Shown: in pieces, positions 7,776-45,895 of the stretch
Position numbering within the stretch: position 1 is the stretch's first letter
How the letters are laid out: each line of letters opens with the position of its first letter
Source: Undaria pinnatifida
Lineage: Eukaryota; Sar; Phaeophyceae; Laminariales; Alariaceae
Direction: 5' to 3'
DNA: 64,000 nt
NCBI GenBank assembly: GCA_012845835.1
Contig: JABAKD010000023.1
Span: 9,057,840-9,121,839 of the forward strand
Position numbers and translations under genes: made by a program
The notes under the pieces: generated by a model
Told to the model about the DNA's origin: nothing
What the model saw: only the letters and a program-made list of their open reading frames with translations
Databases searched by the model: none

Positions 7776-8008
7776 CGGTTTCAATTCCTGGGGATACCGG
7801 GGAGAATATTTTTCAAGTTCGACATGGGGAACAAAGTCTGAAAAAGTTTATCCTTGTGGAGGGTGGGATTTGAACCCACGACCCAAAAAAAACATGATAT
7901 GTCGACGACGCCATTTGTTAAGGGATTATTGGGGTATTAGTCTCATCCGTTTGGCCACTTGCAAAAGGTTAACCAATAGCTTACCCAAATTAAGCCTGTT
8001 ATGGGAAT
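7776..8008 (-). mobile_element. S3 SINE-like element, tandem unit 1
   Basis: On the minus strand the unit has an A-box-like TGGCCAAACGG and, about 75 bases on, a B-box-like GGTTCAAATCC in a GTGGG...CCCAC stem, followed by a non-tRNA body. This resembles a Leu/Ser-type tRNA head, but no clean acceptor stem or anticodon loop can be drawn, so I call it a tRNA-derived SINE rather than a tRNA gene. Confidence 0.6.
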
Positions 8009-8241
8009 CGGTTTCAATTCCTGGGGATACCGGGGAGAATATTTTTCAAGTTCGACATGGGGAACAAAGTCTGAAAAAGTTTATCCTTGTGGACGGTGGG
8101 ATTTGAACCCACGACCCAAAAAAAACATGGTATGTCGACGACGCCATTTGTTAAGGGATTATTGGGGTATTAGTCTCATCCGTTTGGCCACTTGCAAAAG
8201 GTTAACCAATAGCTTACCCAAATTAAGCCTGTTATGGGAAT
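8009..8241 (-). mobile_element. S3 SINE-like element, tandem unit 2
   Basis: Exact head-to-tail copy of 7776-8008 with the same 233-base length and only a few differences that I could see (for example gagggtggg against gacggtggg). Near identity implies recent duplication. Confidence 0.7.
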
Positions 8242-28215: not shown

Positions 28216-28904
28216 ACACACCCGGCTCCAAACGTTTCGGAATTTCTCGTGAAACTCGGACTCAGCCTGATCGATTGCCTCATTATTAATCGTTTTTTTC
28301 GTACCCGGTTTGGTTTAGAACATGTTACATCCGCAAATGTGTTTCCACCCCTGTGGCACTGGTGGTAGCACAGGAAGGAGTGTATGGACGGGTCTTTCTG
28401 ACCGTCGTCGCCCATAGGAAGGAAGGAGTCACATAGTACCTTTGCATCTTAGAATACTTGGCATGAGAACAGCGCATGGCCACTGCAGTGTGTGTACCCG
28501 ACACCTCGATACCCGATAGTAGCGTGTGTACCCGATGGTAGGTTGGTGGCACCACCACCGTTTTGTTGGTTCGTGGTTTTTTTTTTTTTTTTTTGCGCGT
28601 TTCGTCGATTTCGTTGTATCTATACCTAGTACTACAACTGGCGCTTCTTTATTTCCAGTTTCTGTCCGTGTTCTGTAGACTAATCATGATGTGAACGAAC
28701 GAGCTCGCCTCGTTTTCGTCAGCAAGACCCTCAGACTGTCATGGGCATGATGGGTGGAAATAGCAGTTAATTGTGAAGAACACTCACGACGATTGACGGA
28801 ACCTTAACTACTGCTGTATCAAGATGTGTGTTGTTCTTAGAAACTCCGCCCTCCTCTCACCGGTTATACGACTTACAGGATACACTTGATAAACTGATGC
28901 ATTT
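28216..28904. other. No gene recognised
   Basis: A T17-type run at 28577-28594; no gene. Confidence 0.5.
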
Positions 28905-29113
28905 CAGATTTTGTCCCCCTCAAAAACGGGTTTTATGGTTTCCGCGCACAGACTGACTAACATCACCCTGTCGACCCTGATAGCTACACTGTTGAAGTTC
29001 CAAGGGGAGTCGCCGACCTATATCCTTAATGAGGACACACAACCCGTAATACGCGCGATCGCAGCATCACACACAAATTGCAAAGATGAGTTTCGACAAA
29101 ATCTTCGGCCTCA
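28905..29113 (-). mobile_element. Family C arm, interrupted at 29113
   Basis: tttgtccccctcaaaaacgg, ttccgcgcacagactgacta, gaccctgatagctacactg, gagtcgccgacctatatcc and gcaaagatgagtttcgacaa in the order of a complete C arm. The arm stops at ...ggcctca and resumes as tcacagctgaagtg at 30112 after the Harbinger-like insertion. Confidence 0.8.
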
Positions 29114-30111
29114 GGCCGTTTCTTATAGCATTGGATTCTCATCTTCGATTCCGCCAGAATCCGATTCGGCAAAATTCGGGCGGAGAAGAAAGCCCGACCT
29201 TTCTTATAGCGAACGGATTTTGTCAGACGGATTTCAGCAGGACTGTCATTTTTTTTTGAAAACAGCGCGCGCAAAACCCAACACCACACAGCAGCAGCAG
29301 CAGCACACAGCAGACCGATACAGACATACAGACGCAGCGCAGAGGCAGCAGACCACACGCAGCAGACCACACAGACGTTGCAAACATGCCGGACCAAGAG
29401 GCACCAGAGTCGCTGTTGCTAAGCTACAACAGCCTGGCGGAAGCAGCTATAGAGCATTTTGCAGAGTGCTGTGTTGGAGGCATGACACAGAAGCAGATAC
29501 TCATGCAGCTCCTCCAGCTCCTGCCACCAACCCGACTTTGTGTAGTCTTTGCGAGGGTGCACACGCCGCCTCTTGACAGCCCTTGACATCTCATCGTCCT
29601 CTGTGTCGGGCTCTAGCTCGTCTTCGTAGTCTTGTAAGATGAGGTCCCAGGTGGCGACACTACGCTGCTGCTGCAGATGGAAGGCAGCTAGCGTGGTGGC
29701 AAAGACAGCAGAAACGTCGACACCAGCTTTTTCTCTCGCTGTCGCGGCCATTTGATGGTGCACCACGCGTCCCGAGGGCAAGCCAAGTTCGTAGGCTAGC
29801 CCACGGGCGACGCCCAGCAGCCCTAACAGCGCCGGCACTGCAGCACGCATGTGGGGTAGCCCGATGTGTGTGTGTGTGTGCGCGCGCGCGCGGCGCAACC
29901 AGAGAGTTTCAAATAATCCGAGACAGAAATCCGGGTTGGGCAGCGTCTCGGATTTTGGTCAGGAATCCGAGTGGCCGCAACTCGAAAAGCTGAAATCGGA
30001 TTTTTCCGAATTGGATTGTGCCAAAATCCGTGTCTATAAGAAGGCGGAAATGGGCTCAAATCGGATTCTGGCGGAATCGAAGATGAGAATCCAATGCTAT
30101 AAGAAACGGCC
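29114..30111 (-). mobile_element. PIF/Harbinger-like element with perfect 53-bp inverted repeats
   Basis: Ends GGCCGTTTCTTATAGCATTG (29114) and its exact reverse complement at 30111; the inverted repeat is perfect over 53 bases (29114-29166 and 30059-30111). TCA flanks both sides (29111-29113 and 30112-30114), and the flanks join into a normal C arm, giving a clear target site. A 3-base target duplication and GG-starting ends fit PIF/Harbinger (known), though that group usually duplicates TWA. It carries a transposase-like N-terminal fragment on the minus strand. 998 bp is too short for an autonomous element. Confidence 0.8.
29419..29898 (-). pseudogene. Harbinger-type transposase, N-terminal fragment (tentative)
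   Basis: 159-codon frame inside the 998-bp element. After a hydrophobic start it has MAATAREKAGVDVSAVFATT, an acidic DYEDELEPDTEDDE stretch, a basic KRRRVHPRK cluster and DYTKSGWWQELEELHEYL. The order acidic stretch, RRR cluster and YxxSxWW is like the region ahead of the DDE domain in Harbinger-type transposases; this is pattern recognition, not alignment. The catalytic DDE domain is absent. An opposite-strand frame of 66 codons at 29386-29586 is considered a shadow. Confidence 0.45.
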
Positions 30112-30135
30112 TCACAGCTGAAGTGTATTTTTATT
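30112..30135 (-). mobile_element. Family C arm, terminal piece
   Basis: tcacagctgaagtgtatttt completes the arm broken at 29113. Confidence 0.75.
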
Positions 30136-31229
30136 TTTGAAATGTACAAGGGCTCCGCATGGCCGCCAGCATTCGCCGGCGCCCTTGCGTCGGGTAGGGC
30201 ATGCCAGCACTTCGACAAGTTACGGTGTAGCTGTCCGATTTGACATTCATTGAACTTTAAAGTAATGTCAAGAGTTCAATACGAACATGAGATTATGCAA
30301 GTCATAATTTGACAGAATAAGAACGCCATATACAACAAAGAGGGCAAGGATTGGCAGGACACATTGTTGTCAAATGCGCCGTCAAGTAAAAGTTGGCGTA
30401 TATAAAAAAAAAATACCGAAAGAGTATTGAAAACCTGCTTCGCCTCTAGGCGAAACGAAAGAGGGTGTGGCATCAATGAAACGACTCCACTGCTGTCCCC
30501 GTGGCAATGGAGGTTCGAAGTCGACATGATGCAAAGTCGGTTTGCATCAAACGTCGAAATGGGGCCATGTCAACCGGTGAGGTTTTGAAAGAAGAGCTTT
30601 CTTTATTACCTTAAGGCAGTCGCATTGATTGGTCTCCGTGGTCACGGGGGAGGAGGAAAACGAAGAAGAGGAGAGCAACCTCTCGTGGCGGCGGCGTTGT
30701 CTAAGATAGATACGGGGGTGGCTTTGCTCGCACGGGAAGGTGGCGTAGCGCTTCTCTGTTTTTCTCGGGAAGGTGGGATATACGTATGTATCTCCTCTCT
30801 TTGCTTCTCGGGTGCTTTCACGTTGTCGAAATCGGACTTGTCGAAATCGGACTGTCGAAATCGGACGCGCCCCCTCAATAAATAATATCTGGAATGTCTC
30901 TACCATGACGACTGCTGACAGTGTCGTGCGCATTTCCTACTTGGAGACCAACATATTATTTACTGCTAGTATTTTTCATTTCCGACTGGAAGTCCAACTT
31001 CAGCAGAAAAAAATTGGTGCAGACAATCTAGTATCTTTCAGGATGTACTACTACTGCACCAAAAAGAAGTACGAGTCTGTCAATATTTTTTGCGTAGAGA
31101 GGAGAATGGACACATACAAATACAAAATCCCGGACAGGATAAGGGTGTGTGTGGTTGTAGTAATTTACCTCTGTCGCAGGGCTGTGACTCACATCTGCAA
31201 CCTTTTTTCTTCCTCACCCCATTCACTAT
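30136..31229. other. No gene recognised
   Basis: Contains three gtcgaaatcggac repeats (30829-30866) and two ctcgggaaggtgg words. Frames are short. Confidence 0.5.
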
Positions 31230-39675: not shown

Positions 39676-40645
39676 GACGTGTGCTACGATAGAGGTGCGA
39701 GCACTTTTTTTCGTCTGGAACGGTTTCTGAATGACGGGGCTCCTTAACCCAAAATCGTCGGAAATGGATCTTTTTTTCGTTGCATACGAGCACTTTTCGA
39801 GTCTGAAACGGTTTCTGGATGATGGGGCTCCTTGACCCAAAATCGTCGGAAATTGGCCATTTTTTCGTTGCATTCGAGCATTTTTCGAGTCTGAAACGGT
39901 TTCTGGATGACGGGGCTCCTTAACGCAAAATCGTCGGAATTGGCCATTTTTTCGTTGCATTCGAGCATTTTTCGAGTCTGAAACGGTTTCTGGATGACGG
40001 GGCTCCTTGACCCACAATCGTCGGAAATGGATCTTTTTTTCGTTGCATACGAGCACTTTTCGAGTCTGAAACGGTTTCTGAATGACGGGGCTCCTTGACC
40101 CACAATCGTCGGAAATGGATCTTTTTTTCGTTGCATACGAGCACTTTTCGAGTCTGAAAAGGTTTCTGAATGACGGGGTTCCTTAACCCACAATCATCGG
40201 AATTGGCCATTTTTTCGTTGCTTACGAGCATTTTTCGAGTCTGAAACGGTTTCTGGATGACGGGGCTCCTTAACCCAAACACGTCGGAAATTGGCCATTT
40301 TTTCGTTGCATACGAGCACTTTTCGAGTCTGAAACGGTTTCTGGATGACGGGGCTCCTTGACCCAAAAACGTCGGGAATTGGCCATTTTTTCGTTGCATA
40401 CGAGCACTTTTTTCGGCTGAAACGGTTTCTGGATGACGGGGCTCCTTGACCAAAAATCGTCGGAAATTGGCCATTTTTTCGTTGCATGATTCTCGTTGTG
40501 TATCTAGGCCTCGTTTTTTTTTTTCGTCCAGTGCAGCAGTTTTGTTTTTCCCCCAATCTGGTCTCGGGTCAAGACACGTCCTAAGCTCCCGAGAGCGAGG
40601 AATCTAAAAAAAAACGTGGTACACCTCTTCATCGTAGCACGCGTC
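39676..40645 (+). mobile_element. Family A element with nine internal 88-bp repeats
   Basis: Left end GACGTGTGCTACGATAGAGG, right end TCATCGTAGCACGCGTC. The segment that is single in other A copies (ggtttctgaatgacggggct to aaaatcgtcggaaat, then cgttgcat) is present nine times. The aaaatcgtcgg box occurs at about 39751, 39839, 39927, 40014, 40101, 40190, 40277, 40365 and 40453, a period of 87-89. The single 3' half (gtatctaggcc, ctccgagagcgagga-like end) follows. The long minus-strand frames here are a by-product of the repeat. Confidence 0.9.
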
Positions 40646-41799: not shown

Positions 41800-42015
41800 C
41801 TCACGGGTTGGGTCGGGTCGGGTCGGGTCGGGTCGGGTCGGGTCGGGTCGGGTCGGGTCGGGTCGGGTCGGGTCGGGTCGGGTCGGGTCGGGTCGGGTCG
41901 GGTCGGGTCGGGTCGGGTCGGGTCGGGTCGGGTCGGGTCGGGTCGGGCCGGATCACCCTGACACGGTCCGACCCGCGGGAAGTGATCCGACCCGCGAGAA
42001 GTGATCCGACCCGTG
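41800..42015. repeat. GGGTC pentanucleotide array
   Basis: About 28 perfect GGGTC units (41805-41947) followed by three ccgacccgcgagaagtgat-type spacer units pointing the other way. Confidence 0.95.
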
Positions 42016-44717: not shown

Positions 44718-44754
44718 GATTTTTCTTGCCGATACATGAAAACATTTTTCAATT

Positions 44755-45895
44755 TTTGACGAAATTTCGGGGTTTTACCGAAATCAACGAGGGTTGAATC
44801 TTCACGAGTACGAGCCTCAGTTGGCTCGCGAAACAATCGTCCACCCGGCACAGAACCGTCGGTAAGGCAGCAACACTCGCGGAAGTCACCCTCGTGGTTG
44901 TTTCACTGGAGTCGGTCCTACGTATAGGCAGGTGTCCGTGCCTTGGGGAGTGGAATCCATCACCAACTCGTCGCGCTTACAACGCCCAACGTGACGAAAG
45001 TCTCAGCTACTGACGTCAGCGAGCTCGTTCGGGCGGCCGCCTCGGTGCGGTCACTTTGTCAACTCGACGAGAAAGCTCAGCAGCTCTCTGCGCCTTCTGC
45101 GGTTAGTCATGACCTGCCAATGACCTTGGGAAAGACCATGCTCAGTCTCGTGCGCTCGCGAGTGGTGGCACAGCTCGAGCGGTACGGCTGCCCGATCCTC
45201 TACACCCTTGCACCTAAAATTCAGTTGTTTCCTGACAAAAACTGAAGAACTTACGAGGCGAGTTTTTGCGATTAGGGTCGTTCCCAACGAAGCTACGTAT
45301 TTTTGGGGTTTTTACAGAAATTTTCGGCTTTTCTCGAAATTATGTCGGGAAAAACCTAAAAAGTCCACACCCGTAAAAACTGCCCATTTGGCAAGTTTTT
45401 CAGCTTTTTGAGGGAAAAGGCTGAAAAAATTAGGTACAAGGCTGTAGAGGATTGGGCAGCGGCACCGCTCGAACTGTGCCACCACTCGCGAGCGCACGAG
45501 ACTGAGCAGGGTCGTTCCCAAGGTCATTGGCAGGTCATGACTAACCGCAGAAGGCGCAGTGAGCTGCTGAGCTCTCGTCGTCGAGTGGACAAAGTGACCG
45601 CACCGAGGCGGCCGCCCGAACGAGCTCGCTGACGGCAGTAACTGAGACTTTTGTCACGTTGAGCGTTGTAGCGTGACGAGTTTGTGGTGGATTTCACTCC
45701 CCAAGGCACGGATACCTGCCTACGAGTAAGGCCGACTCCAGTGGGACAGCCACGTGGGTGCCTTCTGCGAGCGTTGCTGCTGTAGTGACGGTTCTGTGCC
45801 GGGTGGACGATTGTTTTGGGAGACAAGTGAGGCCCGTACTCGTGAAGATTCAACCTTCGCAGATTTCGGTAAAATGCGGAAAATCTCATCGAAAA
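44755..45895. mobile_element. Large inverted repeat, 470-bp arms
   Basis: Left arm 44755-45224 and right arm 45421-45895 are reverse complements with scattered differences; 196-bp loop. Landmarks in both are gttgaatcttcacgagtacg, acaatcgtccacccggcaca, cgagctcgttcgggcggccg, gcggttagtcatgacctgcc and ctcgtgcgctcgcgagtggt. Each arm carries a version of one reading frame (left 44943-45245): SAVSHDLPMTLG, LLSLVRSRVVAQ and CPIL are kept in both. Family not recognised; may be two opposed copies of one retroelement fragment or a foldback transposon. Confidence 0.75.

Follow-up and report, generated by a model that had tools for sequence, protein, structure and literature searches.

Features of the locus

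The window (the whole stretch of 64,000 nucleotides analysed, from contig JABAKD010000023.1 of Undaria pinnatifida) contains at 29114..30111 an element that was assigned to the non-autonomous PIF/Harbinger elements on the evidence of its inverted ends, its empty sites and a long relative. It measures 998 bp between flanking TCA triplets (left 29111..29113, right 30112..30114). Its terminal inverted repeats are perfect over 53 bp and lie at 29114..29166 (plus strand) and 30059..30111 (minus strand). An inverted-repeat search of the window returned arms of 54 nt with 100% complementarity (29113-29166 and 30059-30112), and the repeat is given as 53 bp because the outermost A/T pair is part of the TCA triplets. 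No exact inverted repeat in the 64 kb is longer than these arms; the second longest, of 47 nt, belongs to a palindromic element at about 45.0-45.6 kb. An exact match of 53 nt is well outside chance expectation. The length, perfect ends and TCA flanks given in the preliminary description, made from the sequence alone, were thus confirmed by exact repeat search. Inside the ends the TTTCTTATAG...GGATTTTG motif recurs in degenerate form; a subterminal copy was found by eye on the left (29200..29225, plus strand) and by repeat search on the right (30019..30042, minus strand); bases 29213-29225 of the left copy pair with 30019-30031.

A minus-strand open frame spans 29419-29958. Known transposase coding within it consists of the first 82 codons of a transposase gene, without the catalytic domain, at 29506..29751 with the ATG at 29751, and would reach 29850 if a second, in-frame ATG located there upstream were used. 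Coding is limited to 29506 onward because an internal deletion joint, identified by comparison with the long relative L148 and consisting of the 7-bp microhomology TGCAGCT, lies at 29504..29510; the remainder of the frame past the joint (29419..29505, minus strand) is not transposase. The short element also retains, on the plus strand, the start of a putative second gene in tail-to-tail arrangement (29386..29510, ATG at 29386), which it has in common with the long relative as far as the joint.

Insertion site

The surrounding sequence is a dispersed host repeat whose copies are ragged at the 5' end and nearly fixed at the 3' end; its 5' part is at 28833..29113 and the 3' part at 30115..30153 (both plus strand). 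Matches to it stop 23-39 bp beyond the insertion joint in 12 of 13 rows and 15 bp beyond it in the remaining row. By analogy, ends of this kind suggest 5'-truncated LINE copies. Further copies of the host repeat are located at 47.4-48.05, 51.7-51.9, 42.2, 36.2 and 5.7 kb of the window.

When the flanks of the element were joined through one TCA, all 13 copies of the host repeat in the window that span the insertion point (13/13) were free of the element; five partial rows that do not span the point and two rows of the locus itself were left out of this count. The triplet at these paralogous empty sites is a single TCA in 11, TCC in one and TGA in one. A single TCA in 11 of 13 empty sites indicates that the triplet most likely pre-existed and was doubled on insertion, and by this comparison TCA is most likely a genuine 3-bp target-site duplication. 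The 13 empty sites support the boundaries that had been placed at the TCA flanks. The description of the surroundings as decayed is fair for the immediate flanks, the host repeat matching the 13 spanning copies at 75-90%.

Long relatives and their transposase

Three long relatives with the same ends were obtained from the genome, the recovery of full-length relatives having been proposed as a check. L148 (C44) is an element of 7,947 bp with AAA on both sides; L149 and L150 are each flanked by TAA left and right. The 998-bp form corresponds to bases 1-400 and 7342-7947 of L148 at 98.5% and 99.3% identity, respectively, with the two L148-derived arms overlapping by TGCAGCT at the joint, so that by arithmetic 6,948 bp (6.95 kb) is absent from the short form. 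Judged from this alignment, the 998-bp element is an internal deletion of the long relative at a 7-bp microhomology. The TGCAGCT joint is identical in all 25 copies of the 998-1007-bp class (25/25). The other 31 short copies have four joints with 17, 11, 2 and 1 members, giving five joints among the copies read, some of which are perhaps nested in others. As with deletion derivatives of the Tourist-like MITE type, the short form has no transposase of its own, carries the ends of an autonomous element and is present in several copies.

Minus-strand frames of L148 in three exons, joined by predicted GT-AG introns, give a protein of 463 aa; the exon joints were selected by the analyst from the open frames, and the protein is accordingly a predicted splice model. 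L149 and L150 give a 463-aa protein that departs from that of L148 at a single residue, and have in common a 1.7-kb CGGGT-rich insert (2774-4494 in L149, 5416-7117 in L150) within predicted transposase intron 1. CGGGT arrays similar to this insert are also present in the window at 41804-41951.

The spliced protein matched the Pfam families Plant_tran (E 1.7e-27) and DDE_Tnp_4 (E 2.7e-20), both above the gathering scores, and exons 2 and 3 of L148 were above them as well. A protein search of the same genome returned 20 matches, 3 of this family (99-100%) and 17 others (37-61%). The exon breaks are at the same places in loci L184-L187, which belong to other families and are 40-61% identical, and the acidic motifs GSTDVTH, VDNGY and ESxRKDVEC are kept in the alignments of L184, L185 and L187; the L187 transposase frame contains a stop. 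The DDE transposase expected of a PIF/Harbinger element is therefore encoded by the partner L148, and the window copy is without the domain. The assignment to PIF/Harbinger made at first sight is borne out by the DDE_Tnp_4/Plant_tran transposase of these long copies, which share the ends of the element.

The minus-strand frame of the window is identical to residues 1-82 of the transposase and then continues across the joint into unlike letters, which agrees with the earlier view of the internal frame as the front of a Harbinger transposase that has lost its catalytic domain. A match of this frame to an unrelated protein would have argued otherwise, and none above chance was seen in Pfam or PDB. 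Four window frames gave one Pfam match far below cut-off (Spo16_C, E 0.11), and the minus-strand frame gave four PDB matches at E 0.41-1.4 that were read as chance; blanks of this kind are expected of a transposase without its catalytic part. In PDB, exon 2 gave one match (E 0.73) and the spliced transposase 0 matches at E up to 1.

L148 also carries plus-strand open frames opposite the transposase strand in a tail-to-tail layout. A second gene, for a Myb/SANT-like DNA-binding protein, is part of the PIF/Harbinger pattern; the candidate plus-strand frame of L148 had no Pfam match, and no tblastn match in four related Harbinger loci.

Copies and target sites in the genome

The element was searched against the host assembly of 511,146,479 bases in 68 contigs. 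Among the 40 of 97 initial candidates that were scored, there were at least 26 near-full-length copies of 99-100% identity together with shorter forms, and at least 3 places that match only the right-hand ~608 bp. A search of the assembly for the terminal repeat, using a 25-base pattern with up to 2 mismatches, found 90 forward and 92 reverse ends and 0 with the reversed control, which corresponds to ~91 insertions. The 53-bp end, which had been proposed as a probe of the genome, is thus found at about 90 insertions.

Sixty of the ~91 insertion loci were read, and 59 sites remain after exclusion of L136, in which the left end is lost. The flanking triplets are identical at 55 of them: 30 TTA, 23 TAA, 1 TCA and 1 AAA, the sole TCA being the window copy and the sole AAA the long copy L148. 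They are unequal at L120 (TTT/TTA), L123 (TTA/TAA), L191 (ATA/TTA) and L206 (TTA/TTT). When duplication lengths of 1-10 were tried, 3 bp fitted 55 of the 59 sites and every other length 0-3 sites. L191 (C22:5744175-5745205), with no matching triplet, has TTATA on both flanks and fits 5 bp. L192 (C23:8575715-8576745) is inside a CCCTAACCCTAA telomere-type repeat and also fits 9 bp, owing to the surrounding repeat. The expectation that other copies would have the same target length therefore stands as a rule, with a 5-bp exception at L191. The half-sites have A at -10 in 58 of 110.

The 3-bp duplication of PIF/Harbinger (PHIS superfamily) is accordingly present in the family, and in the window copy by way of the paralogous empty sites. 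The TWA target of PIF/Harbinger is found in 53 of the 55 matched triplets, the exceptions being the window copy and L148. TCA had been called unusual for the group, and at 1 of 55 it is. The best reading of the insertion at TCA, on these counts, is that an enzyme which prefers TWA landed off its consensus, as it rarely does.

L119 (2500-3308) lies exactly in a TAA that a different inverted-repeat element had duplicated as its target; that element has GGGCCCGAATT ends and a TAA beyond its other end too. The same GGGCCCGAATT end also borders L173 and L175, making 3 of the 59 sites with L119.

The window copy (L118) is identical to L119 and L120 over 998 bp, and such identity of two other copies implies that movement was recent, as the preliminary description had proposed from the terminal repeats. 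In the 998-1007-bp class (n=25) the mean pairwise difference is 0.34% and the maximum 0.8%, with 20 of 300 pairs identical over the aligned bases. These values support recent movement of the family, and by their identity the copies would point to current activity.

Proposed mechanism and alternative readings

The reading preferred here, with a probability of about 0.95, is that of a non-autonomous, internally deleted PIF/Harbinger element mobilised in trans at T-N-A sites by the transposase of the long copies. In Ping/Pong the transposase works together with the product of the second frame. Here the DDE transposase of the long copies, probably with the putative product of the second frame, would bind the ends of the short copies, excise them and reinsert them at T-N-A targets, nearly all of them TTA or TAA, which would be cut with a stagger of 3 nt; the triplet would be doubled when the gaps are repaired. 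For the window copy the same machinery would have taken a TCA in a dispersed repeat that is itself old. The most likely source of the internal deletion is the repair of an excision gap, either interrupted or mediated by microhomology.

The short form preserves two gene starts facing each other, and a more far-reaching proposal is that short copies may express the N-terminus of the transposase in truncated form, with 110 or 143 aa, as well as convergent transcripts, and so damp the long copies, and that the transposase may tolerate TCA, AAA and an occasional 5-nt stagger, making the target rule looser than TWA. This is considered unlikely.

TNA duplications are the classic pattern of Ectocarpus Harbingers, which have two tail-to-tail genes, in the part of PMC12477816 available; as TNA is already described there for brown-algal Harbingers, TCA is taken as a rare variant and gives no new target rule. 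The opposite-strand frames of L148 are in the layout described there, and the matched triplets conform to TNA in 54 of 55 cases, with the AAA at L148 falling outside the TNA group.

The family could instead belong to another group of the PHIS superfamily with 3-bp duplications, in which TCA would count among the regular targets. In the available part of PMC4482050 the target of PIF/Harbinger is TWA, that of Pangu ANT, that of NuwaI CWG and that of NuwaII C|TNA|G. TCA is compatible with TNA, and an excess of C at -1 / G at +1 (seen in 46 of 110 half-sites, where a frequency of 25% would give 27.5; binomial p 8e-5) amounts to a weak flank preference like that of NuwaII, with which the 54 of 55 TNA triplets also agree. 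However, 64 of 110 half-sites are without the flanking C/G, a preference far from strict; of the 55 matched triplets 53 are TWA, with 1 TCA and 0 TGA, and this makes membership of such a group very unlikely. Pangu and NuwaI are ruled out by the absence of ANT (0/55) and CWG (0/55) duplications, and Spy, which makes no target-site duplication, by the empty sites together with the matched triplets at 55 of 59 sites.

The identical copies present in the genome would also be accounted for if the copy had come to its place by gene conversion or as part of a segmental duplication, and not by transposition. The flanks of L118, L119 and L120 have nothing in common except one 35-bp repeat match at unlike positions, their triplets differ (TCA, TAA and TTT/TTA, respectively), the window copy is flanked by a doubled TCA against a single TCA in 11 of 13 empty relatives, and no second locus with the element and the flanks of the window copy was met among the loci read; such an origin is highly improbable. 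A shift of both boundaries outward by one base (AGGCC...GGCCT, 1000 bp), with a duplication of 1 bp, would be compatible with the pairing of the adjoining A and T and with the empty sites taken alone. Its probability is negligible, since 55 of 59 sites, this one included, have matching triplets next to GGCC, a regularity not expected from a 1-bp duplication.

Comparison with described elements

GGCC-type ends are typical of PIF/Harbinger. The present family has them in common with PIF/Harbinger and the Tourist-like MITEs (mPing with Ping/Pong), as it does the 3-bp TWA duplications, the DDE_Tnp_4 domain in the long partner and short copies that retain the ends after internal deletion. It differs from these elements in its perfect 53-bp ends with additional subterminal repeats, in the TCA site of the window copy and in the length of its short copies (~0.8-1.0 kb), which is large for a MITE. 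In the available part of PMC2836001 the PIF/Harbinger superfamily is described as mobilising Tourist MITEs, with both ORF1 and TPase required.

A literature search returned no paper combining Harbinger, target site duplication, TCA and TWA. Searches for Harbinger with Undaria gave none on the present family by title, although papers outside the search or Repbase may hold it, and those for Harbinger, kelp, MITE and inverted repeats gave none on kelp elements by title among the matches listed. The family appears to be a new and young one of the well-known PIF/Harbinger kind, and its long partner is in the same genome. With three long copies that have open transposase frames, ~90 insertions, five joints in the copies read and identical copies at unrelated loci, it constitutes, in a large eukaryotic genome, a young autonomous/non-autonomous Harbinger pair suited to tests of deletion-derivative origin and of the strictness of the TWA rule. 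It leaves existing knowledge of the superfamily unchanged.

Other searches and features of the window

No match to the element was found in the phage collection. In the viral contigs the TIR pattern found none, and the minus-strand frame gave 13 pattern matches, 0 of them confirmed. In prokaryote genome contigs a 14-base TIR pattern gave at least 117 scattered matches, read as chance. Rfam gave 0 matches, no tRNAs were found, and ten other window frames gave nothing above cut-off in Pfam.

Three further repeats were seen in the window. A fold-back-like near-palindrome of 1.14 kb at 44753-45895 is 81.6% self-complementary, its exact arms measuring 47 and 45 nt. At 7776-8241 a 233-bp unit is repeated twice in tandem (99% alike), and at 39698-40487 an 88-bp unit is repeated nine times in tandem (~91% alike) and yields long open frames.
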